Below, one piece after another: positions 29,982 to 35,670 of a stretch of 37,013 nt of DNA. Position numbers and translations under genes: made by a program. The notes under the pieces were generated by a model. That model was given only the letters and a program-made list of their open reading frames with translations. It did not search any database and was not told the DNA's origin. The first letter of the stretch is position 1. Each line of letters starts with the position of its first letter. The DNA is from a bacterium. Lineage in GTDB: Bacteria; Gemmatimonadota; Glassbacteria; GWA2-58-10. The stretch is taken from the NCBI GenBank assembly GCA_021372515.1, contig JAJFUG010000108.1, forward strand, positions 1-37,013, written 5' to 3'.

Positions 29982-30875
29982 ATGGATATTATTATACTAT
30001 CGCATGCCAATACCAAACAGAGCTACAAGGACCTGACAGTCAACCCGGTCCGCAAGGAGGGCGACTACCTGGTCCACCAGATACCGGAGGGCGAGCAGCC
30101 GGTGCACGCCGATTACGGCCTGCGCATCTTCTCCGCGATCCAGGGCCAGCGCTCCGCGGCGCGGGATACGATCCATCCCCGCTACCTTCAGTTCTACGGC
30201 ATCTCCCACCTTTACAAGGGCCGGGGCTGGTACTGGACCCCTGAGAAAGGGGCCGAGATTTTCGAGCCCGGGCGGGCCGTGTTCACCACCCCGGGGTTCG
30301 TGCAGGACTACGACGGGTACAAGGCCGACTACGTGCAGGACTATATCTGTTTCTGCGGGCCGCTGGCCGACCACCTGTTCAAGAGCGGGATCATAACCAA
30401 CGGCCTGCACGCGTTCGGCGAGGCCCGCCTTCTGCTGCCGATCATCCAGGAGGTGCGCGACCCCTCGTTCACCTCCCAGATCAAGGCCAACCGTCTGCTC
30501 CAGAACCTGCTGGTCGACCTTTTCCTCAAGCGTTTCGAGGGCGAGGCCAGCGAGAAATATCCACAGGTCGCCCGTCTGCTGGAACTGTTGCGTCAGGAGC
30601 CGGCGCGTAACTGGACCAACCTGGAGATGGCGGAGCTTTGCAACATGAGCCTCTGCCAGTTCCATCGCGTTTTTTTCCGCAAGACCGGCTACACGCCGAA
30701 GCGGTATCTGGACATGCTGAAAATCAAGCAGTCCGCCGAGCTGCTGTGCGTGGACGGGCTCTCGGTGGCCGAGGTCGCCTCCCGGCTGGGTTACGCCGAC
30801 CCGTTCCATTTCAGCCGCCGTTTCAAAACGATGACCGGCATCTCGCCCCAGAGTTACCGCAGACAGTTCGGCTGA
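29982..30875 (+). CDS. AraC-family transcriptional regulator
   Basis: A 297-residue protein. The N-terminal ~170 residues form a cupin-like sensor (HPRYLQFYGISHLYKGRGWYWTPEKGAEIFEPGRAVFTTPGFVQDYDGY). The C-terminal ~100 residues form two helix-turn-helices: NWTNLEMAELCNMSLCQFHRVFFRKTGYTPKRYLDMLKI, then AELLCVDGLSVAEVASRLGYADPFHFSRRFKTMTGISPQSYRR, the AraC/XylS signature. It is divergent from the SSS/UroD/glycosidase operon and is presumably its sugar-responsive activator. The ribosome site before ATG 29982 is weak. Confidence 0.88.
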   Translation: MDIIILSHANTKQSYKDLTVNPVRKEGDYLVHQIPEGEQPVHADYGLRIFSAIQGQRSAARDTIHPRYLQFYGISHLYKGRGWYWTPEKGAEIFEPGRAVFTTPGFVQDYDGYKADYVQDYICFCGPLADHLFKSGIITNGLHAFGEARLLLPIIQEVRDPSFTSQIKANRLLQNLLVDLFLKRFEGEASEKYPQVARLLELLRQEPARNWTNLEMAELCNMSLCQFHRVFFRKTGYTPKRYLDMLKIKQSAELLCVDGLSVAEVASRLGYADPFHFSRRFKTMTGISPQSYRRQFG

Positions 30876-32749: not shown

Positions 32750-33394
32750 CTTTGCCCTCCTCCGGTTGAAAAAATCCTTTGGTTTTCGGCGATTTTCCGC
32801 AAGGAACCGAACGCAAAGAGCGTCCAACCCAGCAATGTCCGGTTAGGAACTTGCCGTGAGAAGCCGAAAGACTCTGTTCTGCTTTGGTTTCGGCCAAAGC
32901 AGCAAAGCCAGCGGGGGCCGCAAACTCGTCCCAGCCGAGCCTCTCCTTCAACCTCGGTGTGCTTGAAGCTCCGATTCCGCTGCCGCGATGCAGCGGCGGC
33001 GCTGCCGCGAATCGCCGCCGGACCATGGGGAATTACTGAACCGGCCGTTTCACACTCGATTGCACGCTGCCCTGGCGGGAGGCTCAGACAGGTGCGGCCC
33101 CCAAAGGCGCAACTGCGGCGGCCTGACAGCCGCAAGCCGGTTTCGCCTCCTGGGATGCCAGGCGATGTCGAGGGGGTAAACCTTGAGTTCGCCCGTAAAA
33201 CTGATATGAAAAACCTAACCGGACATCACTACGTCCAACCCCCACAGTCGACAGGTTGTTCGCAGTGCCGGGAAGACAGCGACAAAGCGGAGGTGAAAAC
33301 GGACTTGTCGTCCCGAGACGAGACTGACTGCAGGTGGCCCTGCAAATAGGGATGTAATTTCAACTTTGCCAGGGATGGCGATGGAGGTGCCAGT
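32750..33394. other. Gene-free stretch ahead of the EF-hand gene
   Basis: About 650 bp with no credible gene. Most of it is element A. The last ~200 bp (33180-33390) lead into the GGAGGTG ribosome site of the EF-hand gene and would hold its promoter, but I see no clear -35/-10 pair. Confidence 0.5.
32811..33140 (+). repeat. Element A: ~330-bp diverged repeat, forward copy
   Basis: Blocks shared with element B (35.3-35.67 kb, opposite strand): GGTTAGGAACTTGC (32841-32854), GGGGCCGCAAACTCG (32914-32928) and a 21-base block starting GGCTCAGACAG at 33081. The blocks occur in the same order and at nearly the same spacing. Between blocks 1 and 2 is a perfect hairpin (CTGCTTTGG/CCAAAGCAG, 32879-32902). 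After block 2 is a second one (CTTCAA/TTGAAG, 32946-32968) with CGGTGT in its loop. No protein frame is shared by the two copies. It may be a structured RNA or a palindrome-bearing mobile element; it is not one I recognise. Confidence 0.6.
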
Positions 33395-34519
33395 ATGGTT
33401 ATCCAAGGAACAAGCGGCATCACACCCATGTGGCAATTATTTGGAACGGGAAGGATGGCTGGAAATCTTACCATCAACGGAACCAACAGCCAGTCCGTTT
33501 CAGGTGATTCCGCCGCCGGTGGTAATGTCTCCGCAAGTGTGTCCGCTTTCGGGGACAGAGTGGAGATCAGCGGGGCCGGGCGGCTGGCCGGTGCGCAACA
33601 GGTGCAGTCGATGCAGCGGCCGCCCGACGGGCCGGAGCCCGATGTGTCCGGTATGAGCCAGAACTTTATGGACCTGCTGGATACGGACGGTGACGGGAGC
33701 CTGAGCAGCGAGGAAATCGGCACCCTGACCGGACAGCTCGAGGGCGCGGATTCGGACAGCGACGGCCTGGTCAGCCAGGATGAGCTGCTCGCGGCCCTTT
33801 CGGCCGGGATGCAGAACAGCCAGGCCATGGCCGGACCGGGCATGATGGCCGGTCCGCCGCCGCCCCCGGACTCCGGTCAGATCAGCGCCCAGATGATAAG
33901 CAGTCTGGACACGGACGGGGATGGAAGCCTGAGCCAGACTGAACTCGGCGATCTGGCCGAGCAGTTGGCCCCGGCCGACACGGACAGCGACGGCCTGATC
34001 AGCGGGGATGAGCTTGCCTCGGCGATCGAGGCCCAGATGCAGAGTCTGTCCGGCGAGGAGGAGGCCTCCGGGATGCAGCAAGCCGGCCCGCCGCCACCTC
34101 CGCCGCCTCCGCCCGCCCAGATGGATGCGACCTCGATGAGCGACCAGCTGATCAGCCAGCTCGACACCGACGGGGATGACGCCCTGAGCCTGGATGAACT
34201 CGGCGACCTGAGCGAGAATTTCGCCGCGGCCGACACGAACGGCGACGGGGTAATAAGCCGGGAGGAGCTTCTCAATTCCCTCTCCTCCAAGCTGGATGAG
34301 ATGGGTGGCCTGCCGCAGATGGGCAAGAGCGGAACGCAGGAGTTGAACGCGTTCAAGCAGATGATAGGCAAGACGATAGAACAGAGCGGGGATACCTCGG
34401 AGGCCGAGAGCAACATTTCGCGCATCACCGACCTGCTGGGTGAACTCGGCCTGTCCGGGGAAGAAACCCGGAGCGTGCTGAACCTTATTCAGAACGCCCG
34501 GTTCGATATGTCCGCCTGA
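33395..34519 (+). CDS. Six-EF-hand calcium-binding protein
   Basis: A 374-residue acidic protein with no signal peptide. After a Ser/Gly/Asn-rich start (residues 1-65) come three EF-hand pairs separated by proline-rich linkers (PPPPPDSGQ near 151-159 and a run of nine prolines near 232). The calcium loops are DTDGDGSLSSEE, DSDSDGLVSQDE, DTDGDGSLSQTE, DTDSDGLISGDE, DTDGDDALSLDE and DTNGDGVISREE. All keep the key Asp/Glu positions, but the fifth has Asp for the usual Gly at position 6. The pairs resemble each other closely, suggesting internal triplication. The C-terminal ~80 residues are helical. It starts at ATG 33395 after GGAGGTG. The sigma operon lies upstream and a Spy-like gene downstream, suggesting a calcium- or metal-related envelope role, but cytosolic or exported location is unclear. 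Confidence 0.85.
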   Translation: MVIQGTSGITPMWQLFGTGRMAGNLTINGTNSQSVSGDSAAGGNVSASVSAFGDRVEISGAGRLAGAQQVQSMQRPPDGPEPDVSGMSQNFMDLLDTDGDGSLSSEEIGTLTGQLEGADSDSDGLVSQDELLAALSAGMQNSQAMAGPGMMAGPPPPPDSGQISAQMISSLDTDGDGSLSQTELGDLAEQLAPADTDSDGLISGDELASAIEAQMQSLSGEEEASGMQQAGPPPPPPPPPAQMDATSMSDQLISQLDTDGDDALSLDELGDLSENFAAADTNGDGVISREELLNSLSSKLDEMGGLPQMGKSGTQELNAFKQMIGKTIEQSGDTSEAESNISRITDLLGELGLSGEETRSVLNLIQNARFDMSA

Positions 34520-34650
34520 CCGATTGTGGGGCCACCGCAGTCACAGATAATGCCTGTTTTATGTTGGATGGGATCCGGGACGGAGCCGGCCTGGCGCCCG
34601 GATATTTATACGGAAGATGCGTTCAATATCAAGCTGAAAGGGGTGGGAAG

Positions 34651-35067
34651 ATGAACTGGAAGACTCTCTTATTGACTCTGTTCATGGCCCTGGCCACGGT
34701 CGTTTTCGCGCTGGCGCAGCAGGGTCCTCCGCCGGATGGCGAGGGCGGTGGAGGCGGCCAAAGAGGAAAGGCGCCCTCGGTCGAGGACCGTCTGGAGCGC
34801 ATGCGGAAAGACCTGGACCTGACCGATGACCAGGTGGCGAAGATAAAGCCGATCCTGGAGGACATGCAGAAACAGATGGAGTCCCTGCGAGAGAACAGCT
34901 CCGGCGACCGGGAGCAGTCCATGGAAGCGATGAAAAAGCTGATGGACTCCGAGGAAGAAAAAATCTCGGCCCTGTTGACCGATGAGCAGAAAACCAAGCT
35001 CGCCGAGATGAAGAAGGAACGTGAGAAAAACCGTCCCGGACCGGGGCAGGGACGTCCGCCGCGCTGA
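34651..35067 (+). CDS. Exported Spy/CpxP-like protein with LTxxQ motifs
   Basis: A 138-residue protein with signal peptide (MNWKTLLLTLFMALATVVFA, cleavage near ALAQ). A Gly-rich spacer is followed by a helical hairpin with two LTxxQ-type motifs: LDLTDDQVAKIKPIL and LLTDEQKTKLAEM, the Spy/CpxP/P pilus-chaperone-like signature. The charged helix between them (DMQKQMESLRENSSGDREQSMEAMKKLMDSEEEK) fits the family's cradle shape. Such proteins bind unfolded proteins or metals in the periplasm and are usually induced by envelope stress, so it may be a target of the upstream ECF sigma factor. ATG 34651 follows GGTGGGAAG. The tail is Pro/Gly/Arg-rich. Confidence 0.82.
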   Translation: MNWKTLLLTLFMALATVVFALAQQGPPPDGEGGGGGQRGKAPSVEDRLERMRKDLDLTDDQVAKIKPILEDMQKQMESLRENSSGDREQSMEAMKKLMDSEEEKISALLTDEQKTKLAEMKKEREKNRPGPGQGRPPR

Positions 35068-35101
35068 GCGCGGCGGCAGCAGCGCGCGCTGGCCCCGGAA
35101 C

Positions 35102-35146
35102 AAAGGCCCGGGCGGGAGCTGAAATCGGCCCTCCGTTCGGGCCTTT
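35102..35146 (+). terminator. Terminator-like hairpin after the Spy-like gene
   Basis: AAAGGCCCG and CGGGCCTTT form a perfect 9-bp stem enclosing 27 nt, with an inner GGAG/CTCC stem. The arm itself ends in TTT, then CCG. This is plausible for the EF-hand/Spy transcript. Confidence 0.5.
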
Positions 35147-35180
35147 CCGTGCCCGGCACCATCCCCCACCGATCAGCGTT

Positions 35181-35199
35181 GTCCGGCTTAGGAAGTTGC
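35181..35199 (+). repeat. Possible third fragment of the repeat element
   Basis: GTCCGGCTTAGGAAGTTGC matches the start of element A (GTCCGGTTAGGAACTTGC, 32837-32854) with one inserted base and one substitution. The similarity fades afterwards, so this is a fragment or chance. Confidence 0.3.
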
Positions 35200-35299
35200 A
35201 GGCAGGGTCGTAAGGAAGCTAAGCCGTGCCCGGCATGCCGTGTCGCTACAGGAAATACAGATGTTTAAGGCCTATCATGTATCCAGGCCTGCGTCAGGG

Positions 35300-35670
35300 C
35301 CGGGCTGCTTCTGGAACATCTTCCGTATCCTGGCTTTGTTCCCAAGCGGCCCGCAGGGCCGTCCGGGGCCGTTCTGTCCGAGCCGCACAAGAGGAGCGCA
35401 GTAACAGACCCGTGCACAGCGGAGGCAAATGAAGCCCCCGAAGCCGGGCGGGCAATCAGCGTCAGCGTCGCCCCGCAACACAGGCAGCGGCCAGAGGTGC
35501 TCCGCGTACACCGCGGGCGGAAGAAAAGCCGAGGCCAATGCGAGTTTACGGCCCCGAAGCGTCTTTTAGTCCTTTTCCACAAGCCGGAAAAGGACAAGAA
35601 AGTAGTTGCCCTGCGATTCCGGGATGCAAGTTCCTGACCGTTCAAAGCTGCCACCGCTCTTTTTTGGAAG
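35300..35670 (-). repeat. Element B: diverged inverted copy of element A
   Basis: On the minus strand the same three blocks appear in the same order: GGTCAGGAACTTGC (35639-35626), GGGGCCGTAAACTCG (35555-35541) and GGCTCGGACAGAACGGCCCC (35384-35365). Block spacings are 84 and 171 nt, against 73 and 167 nt in element A. A perfect 10-bp hairpin (GTCCTTTTCC/GGAAAAGGAC, 35569-35595) occupies the place of element A's first hairpin with different bases. The second hairpin (35501-35521) keeps the CGGTGT loop but has a GC stem (TCCGC/GCGGA). Paired changes with a constant loop argue for selection on structure. Confidence 0.6.

Follow-up and report, generated by a model that had tools for sequence, protein, structure and literature searches.

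The stretch of DNA analysed here (the window) is the 37,013 nucleotides of contig JAJFUG010000108.1 in assembly GCA_021372515.1, from a bacterium of the Glassbacteria (Gemmatimonadota). Between positions 29982 and 35067 it houses a row of genes for an AraC-type regulator, an extracytoplasmic function (ECF)-type sigma factor, a Metal_resist (CpxP/Spy-like) protein, an EF-hand repeat protein and a second LTXXQ/Spy-like protein; the window also carries two oppositely oriented elements, A and B, of which A sits between the Metal_resist gene and the EF-hand gene. An earlier note on this DNA had recognised in both elements three common sequence blocks and two hairpins, the first of which (here H1) was said to be perfect in both copies and made of different bases, and all of these were found where it had placed them. 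The two elements are complete insertions bounded by terminal inverted repeats (TIRs), of 402 bp (A) and 477 bp (B), each with its own target-site duplication, which matches over 9/9 bp in A and over 7/8 in B, the element whose ends are the more worn. The 'third fragment' suspected at 35181 turned out to be the second terminal repeat of B, and not a third copy. A and B are very probably independent insertions of miniature inverted-repeat transposable elements (MITEs), with mobilisation of the IS4Sa type inferred, and they carry a separate structured module (the core) that has been spread by different transposons.

Searches of the host genome with copy A gave 43 places, mostly with 78-88% identity over long stretches, and with copy B 26; the end sequence TGTCCGGTTAGGAAC occurs there 34 times, and its reversed control not at all. 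At least 76 distinct cores were counted in the fetched loci, so that what had been taken for an element in two copies is instead a dispersed family, recurring beyond chance; copies with target-site duplications, which by the earlier note would support a mobile element, are present. The assembly consists of 222 contigs, many of which end within a copy. Five convergent pairs of cores lie less than 300 nt apart (L047, L058 and L059, with L043 and L049 by BLAST), where 0.2 to 0.6 neighbour pairs in any orientation, or about 0.3, would be expected; convergent pairs are also present on plasmids of Variovorax and Parabacteroides, spaced by about 350-400 nt (L196, 1511/1920; L199, 1501/1865). These recurrent pairs resemble the organisation of REP doublets forming hairpins (REPINs), REP standing for repetitive extragenic palindrome, or of bacterial interspersed mosaic elements (BIMEs). 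Two families of palindromic repeats, GGGGCACGGCGCGCCGTGCCC and GTAGGGGCGAACCTTGTGTTCGCCC, often adjoin cores in genome G000, for example just before H1 in L082 and L091, and B-type cores frequently start directly after GGGGCACGGCGCGCCGTGCCC.

An 8-bp direct repeat with at least seven of its eight positions matching was found at 11 of the 24 copies for which both ends could be placed, against 3% of mismatched flank pairs. The right end is poor in six of the 24; because these six are probably incomplete, the true rate of duplication among complete copies is higher. Only one DDE_Tnp_1 gene was found in the host genome, and it is part of an insertion sequence (IS) on contig C114 whose ends, CAGTAGTGTCCGGTTAAGG (left) and CAGTACTGTCCGGTTAAAATTT, resemble those of the elements. 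The transposase of this IS (392 amino acids; DDE_Tnp_1 and DUF4372) scores 260 bits against the NCBIfam IS4 model NF033592, for which the cut-off is 115, and the YREK signature, Y(2)R(3)E(6)K, can be read in it as YKHRWQIELFFKWIK. The IS4Sa subgroup is characterised by ends of the form CA------T and direct repeats of 8-10 bp (IS4 family survey 2008, PMC2266710). The ends of the partner IS begin with CA and have T at position 9, and so fit IS4Sa; the duplications of about 8 bp were measured on the MITEs and not on the IS, the two flanks of which lie on different contigs. TIRs at both ends of A, of B and of many other copies, target duplications, no coding capacity, a large number of copies, and an autonomous partner with matching ends are the features by which a MITE is recognised, and of the earlier suggestion of a structured RNA or a palindrome-rich non-autonomous element it is the mobile half that has held. 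The IS4Sa-type transposase of this same-genome IS, with its near-identical ends, would excise the elements and paste them elsewhere, with duplication of some 8 bp.

The core, about 230 nt in length, has a constant order: H1, then GGGGCCG(C/T)(A/G)AACTCG, some 154 nt of insert, GGCTC(A/G)(A/G)ACA, and a complementary CGGCCCC arm that completes a second, closing stem. There are nine types of H1 stem, each perfectly Watson-Crick; of the nine positions in the stem, eight vary in at least one type. The closing stem (GGGGCCGCA/TGCGGCCCC in A, GGGGCCGTA/AACGGCCCC in B) has 97% pairing across 56 copies, with two-sided changes numbering 41 where shuffling gives 14.9, a comparison that is inflated by the kinship of the sequences; slid controls, in which that kinship is retained, are 36-52% paired. 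The innermost pair of this stem is A-A in B and A-T in most relatives. The structural conservation that had been claimed for the pair is borne out by this covariation for H1 and for the closing stem, and the hairpin with a CGGTGT loop to which the earlier note drew attention is indeed present, but the closing stem is better supported. A further hairpin within the insert is likely. Folds computed by subfamily concur on the closing stem and differ elsewhere; in an alignment of mixed subfamilies MAFFT misregisters H1 and the 3' arm, which spoils RNAalifold there. Among mismatches in H1 and in the closing stem G-U is no commoner than A-C, so that the stems speak no more for RNA than for DNA. The hairpins of the core probably act at the level of DNA, single-stranded or as cruciforms. 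The parts of both elements are listed in Table 1.

Table 1. Parts of elements A and B, in window coordinates.
Feature	Position	Strand	Basis or remark
Left target-site duplication of A, CGTCCAACC	32821..32829	.	8/8 in the duplication test; identical 9 bp at 33232-33240
Element A, complete, non-autonomous, TIR-bounded, 402 bp	32830..33231	+	Terminal repeats and duplication; 43 matches in own genome
Left TIR of A, CAGCAATGTCCGGTTAGGAAC	32830..32850	+	Resembles IS end CAGTAGTGTCCGGTTAAGG
H1 hairpin of A, CTGCTTTGG(TTTCGG)CCAAAGCAG	32879..32902	+	Loop is the place of IS insertion in other copies
Closing stem of A, 5' half, GGGGCCGCA	32914..32922	+	Covariation test on 56 copies
AACTCG, first half of conserved loop, A	32923..32928	+	Whole loop present in other phyla
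Inner hairpin region of core insert, A, GGCGGCGCTGCCGCGAATCGCCGCC	32994..33019	+	Moderate support
GGCTCAGACA, second half of conserved loop, A	33081..33090	+	
Closing stem of A, 3' half, TGCGGCCCC	33093..33101	+	Covariation test
Right TIR of A, AAACCTAACCGGACATCACTA	33211..33231	+	Test of TIRs and duplications
Right target-site duplication of A, CGTCCAACC	33232..33240	.	Duplication test
Target-site duplication of B, low side, CCACCGAT	35166..35173	.	7/8 match to CCACCGCT at 35651-35658
Element B, TIR-bounded, 477 bp, older copy of second subfamily	35174..35650	-	26 genome matches; ends
3' TIR of B	35174..35194	-	Test of TIRs and duplications
Closing stem of B, 3' half, AACGGCCCC on minus strand	35365..35373	-	Covariation test
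Closing stem 5' half and AACTCG of B, GGGGCCGTAAACTCG on minus strand	35541..35555	-	
H1 hairpin of B, GTCCTTTTCC(GGCTTGT)GGAAAAGGAC	35569..35595	-	Perfect stem
Target-site duplication of B, high side, CCACCGCT	35651..35658	.	Duplication test

In genus g4, which belongs to the same family (as does Candidatus Glassbacteria RIFCSPLOWO2_12_FULL_58_11) and includes the metagenome-assembled genome Dive96_bin10.104, called Gemmatimonadales, copies of the core have a likeness that starts shortly before H1 and stops shortly after the closing stem, and these core-only copies have neither terminal repeats nor shared flanks. One g4 genome also has the core within elements of 387-394 bp that are ended by GAGGTTATTTCAAAAC...GTTTTGAAATAACTTC and mostly flanked by TA. 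The core is thus carried by two unrelated types of transposon, and since it occurs alone as well, it must be regarded as a separate module and not as a product of the IS4-type transposon. No autonomous partner of the TA-flanked element was present among ten fetched g4 loci, and the copies in hand from G003 and G005 have no flanks in common. A strict long-core pattern was matched in four of 395 genomes of the phylum, all from the same family; when one genome from each of 84,980 species was scanned, the H1 hairpin was found only at matches from this Glassbacteria family, and the other long-core matches, mostly in apparent coding sequence, look like chance. Similarity searches of plasmids and phages with the whole elements gave nothing or one chance-level match, and E. 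coli gave none.

Hairpin loops recur as the places where these transposons have landed. At three of the seven visible IS junctions the IS lies inside the H1 loop of an element copy (CTGCTTTGGTTTCGGCC, followed by the IS). Many copies of the elements directly follow GTCCTTTCGGTCTTGCC or its mirror image GTCCTTTCGGGCAAGACC, which is half of another type of H1, GTCCTTTCGG(TCTTGC)CCGAAAGGAC; in L047, where the other side is intact, the right end is followed by the second half of the hairpin and then by the start of a core. H1 loops would accordingly serve as landing sites both for the IS, in the H1 loops of elements, and for the elements, in H1-type loops of older cores. Many other copies have only a left end beside the half-hairpin, with varied sequence to the right, and these are probably the remains to be expected of recombination between the inserted core and the core of its host. 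There is a precedent in ISRm22, a member of the IS4 family that targets REP sequences of Sinorhizobium meliloti (PMC1525189). In G003 the two types of transposon also nest: at L189:1498-1540 an IS4Sa-type end, CAGTACTGTCCGGTTAAAATTTGA, lies a few bases inside a terminal repeat of the GAGGTTATTTCAAAAC type.

A stem-loop with the two halves of the loop joined as AACTCGCTNCGCTCARACA, and lacking the 154-nt insert, was found in Variovorax, Butyrivibrio, Ilyobacter and Parabacteroides, Variovorax and Parabacteroides each having a second copy; the first query, a generic stem with AACTCGCTGCGCTCAAACA, had matched plasmids. The loop is closed by different perfect stems, such as AAAAATCAA/TTGATTTTT and AGGGTCCG/CGGACCCT, and in all but Butyrivibrio it is preceded by an H1, for example GTTACTTTTC(CTTGAT)GAAAAGTAAC. 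In Butyrivibrio the copies form long, near-perfect hairpins that bear the loop at their tip, and one of them has an insert in the loop; the Glassbacteria cores, which have no contiguous 19-nt loop and hold some 154 nt between its halves, show the same on a larger scale. A scan of viral contigs for the loop yielded 26 contigs. A closing stem of at least 6 bp was found at 14 of 27 unique loop sites (swapped flanks 0.7%) and an H1 of at least 8 bp at 15 of 26 (shuffled sequence 2.3%), and in 11 of these 15 a complement of at least 5 nt to the H1 loop, often CTTGA(T/A), follows just downstream (shuffled 14%), which would permit a possible pseudoknot. About half of the loop sites lack closing stem and H1, and may be something else. 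Seven viral loci (L212, L214, L215, L216, L220, L221 and L226) have the 19-nt loop in another constant context, GAACTCGCTTCGCTCAAACACTGGCGCACTTCGTTTGCGGTTCGACTGGT, where neither closing stem nor H1 is present; they may be the ends of integron-like cassettes. One viral contig has a match to manA RNA at L207:2297-2520, its 54.3 bits being just under the gathering score of 55.2.

The suggestion that the pair could mobilise the genes between them, as a composite transposon, is scarcely credible. A and B do face in opposite directions and flank the EF-hand/Spy genes; but because each has its own target duplication they must have inserted separately, the ground on which a composite transposon is rejected, and in a genome with 76 cores, where about 3.5 pairs under 3 kb are expected, their inverted placing at 2.3 kb is within chance. 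Still less can be said for both copies being remnants of one protein-coding gene, an outcome that the earlier note had named as fatal to its proposal. In many copies certain frames are open, which high G+C would lead one to expect, but the lengths of the cores are spread over all three classes modulo 3, and the frame that is most often open is so in at most 43 of 79 copies. On these tests, together with the compensating changes in the stems, this reading is rejected. Somewhat more can be said for the idea of the earlier note that the core is a gene for a structured non-coding RNA, which would act as RNA and be merely spread by transposons. Despite their divergence, nearly all of the 80 copies keep 187-193 nt from the closing stem to its partner, the stems covary, folding is below that of shuffled sequences (z of -1.9 to -2.8 in Glassbacteria and -2.8 to -18 in 14 cross-phylum cases), and there is the candidate pseudoknot between the H1 loop and the sequence downstream. 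Against this, copies have no consistent orientation to neighbouring genes (on crude calls of open reading frames), an excess of G-U over A-C is lacking, no consensus promoter stands beside either window element, Rfam at gathering and relaxed thresholds holds no relevant family for the elements or for the cross-phylum loci, and the copy number is very high. This half of the earlier suggestion is not borne out: an RNA nature of the core is not favoured, this reading is quite improbable, and the hairpins would more likely be recognised in DNA than function as RNA.

Watson-Crick-only stems, as expected of DNA hairpins, also fit the idea that core-only copies are a mobile unit in their own right, transferred in single-stranded form by an enzyme of the HUH/Y1, REPIN-like kind that recognises hairpins, the two ends being formed by the hairpins H1 and closing stem-loop. 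Their homology is limited to the span from H1 to the closing stem, without TIRs, and cores recur as convergent pairs, as REPs do in REPINs (PMC3116915). On the other hand a GTAG-type tag is lacking, the elements far exceed REPs in length and no rule for the site of insertion was found, so that this idea, while not negligible, is on the unlikely side. It might finally be held that the likeness across phyla is convergence or chance and that the core is confined to Glassbacteria. The strict long-core pattern, and among the matches in the genome scan those with H1, are indeed limited to one family, and the joined loop pattern is absent from 17 further genomes save for one match in a genome of that family. 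This must be set against the same order in the other phyla (H1, then a stem closed on AACTCG...GCTCARACA), the same stem register, the similar CTTTT-rich arms of H1 and the loop insertion seen also in Butyrivibrio, and confinement to Glassbacteria accordingly has a low probability.

The account of A and B as independent MITE insertions bearing a transferable core has to be read with several points that tell against it. Mobilisation of the elements by the C114 IS is inferred from the similarity of their ends; this IS is split over contig ends, and its full length was pieced together from junctions; and about half of the tested copies, old or rearranged, have no clear duplications. A tree-aware covariation test of the inner columns gave no significant pairs, and for this reason a full inner fold is not claimed. 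As for other phyla, where AACTCG and GCTCARACA occur joined, the connection is drawn from H1, the register of the stem and a 15-nt split motif, and the 154-nt insert cannot be aligned with anything. Most likely the core represents a structured intergenic element of several phyla in a form peculiar to this lineage and expanded by the insert. Cores of this kind appear to be widespread, in at least four other bacterial phyla, and to be undescribed, the exact strings of the loop and of H1 having no relevant match in the open-access literature searched. A broader proposal, plausible but short of probable, is that the core belongs to an unnamed class of structured DNA spanning phyla, mobile or hitch-hiking, in which a 5' hairpin whose loop can pair just downstream is followed by a long, variable hairpin topped by the near-invariant AACTCGCTNCGCTCARACA; unrelated transposons would capture it, and it would need a factor common to bacteria that recognises the loop.

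What lends the module its interest is that it is independent of any one transposon, occurring alone, in the IS4Sa-type MITE and in the TA-flanked MITE, as though a structured core had been captured and spread by different transposons, and that its hairpin loops also serve as landing places for the elements of the transposase itself. Should the likeness to the stem-loops of Proteobacteria, Bacteroidota, Bacillota and Fusobacteriota hold good, then a common binding partner would be implied, because a near-invariant 19-nt loop is there borne on freely changing stems.

Among known systems, the closest to the mobile part is the IS4Sa group of the IS4 family, to which the partner IS conforms in its DDE and YREK transposase and its CA/T ends, and the elements in their duplications of about 8 bp; unlike such an IS, the window elements encode nothing, and their structured core is unrelated to the interior of the IS. 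MITEs are usually regarded as empty husks of an IS. A and B share with other bacterial MITEs their shortness, lack of genes, TIRs, target duplications, many copies and autonomous partner, but differ from them in that the interior module is also found without TIRs and in a second, unrelated TIR element. The ordinary part of the system is therefore two MITE insertions and their IS4-type partner, and the unusual part a structured module housed in different transposons. That module recalls the multi-copy structured RNAs of Rfam in its conserved fold, covariation and many copies, and differs in matching none of them. With REPs, BIMEs and REPINs, and with ISRm22 (PMC1525189, PMC3116915), it has in common intergenic hairpin repeats, inverted pairs and an IS4-type IS in the hairpin; but where a REP or REPIN, which goes with a RAYT transposase, has a palindrome of 20-40 bp and a GTAG/CGTC-type tag, the core has about 230 nt, no such tag that could be seen, two hairpins, a conserved split loop, and an H1 that varies with compensation.

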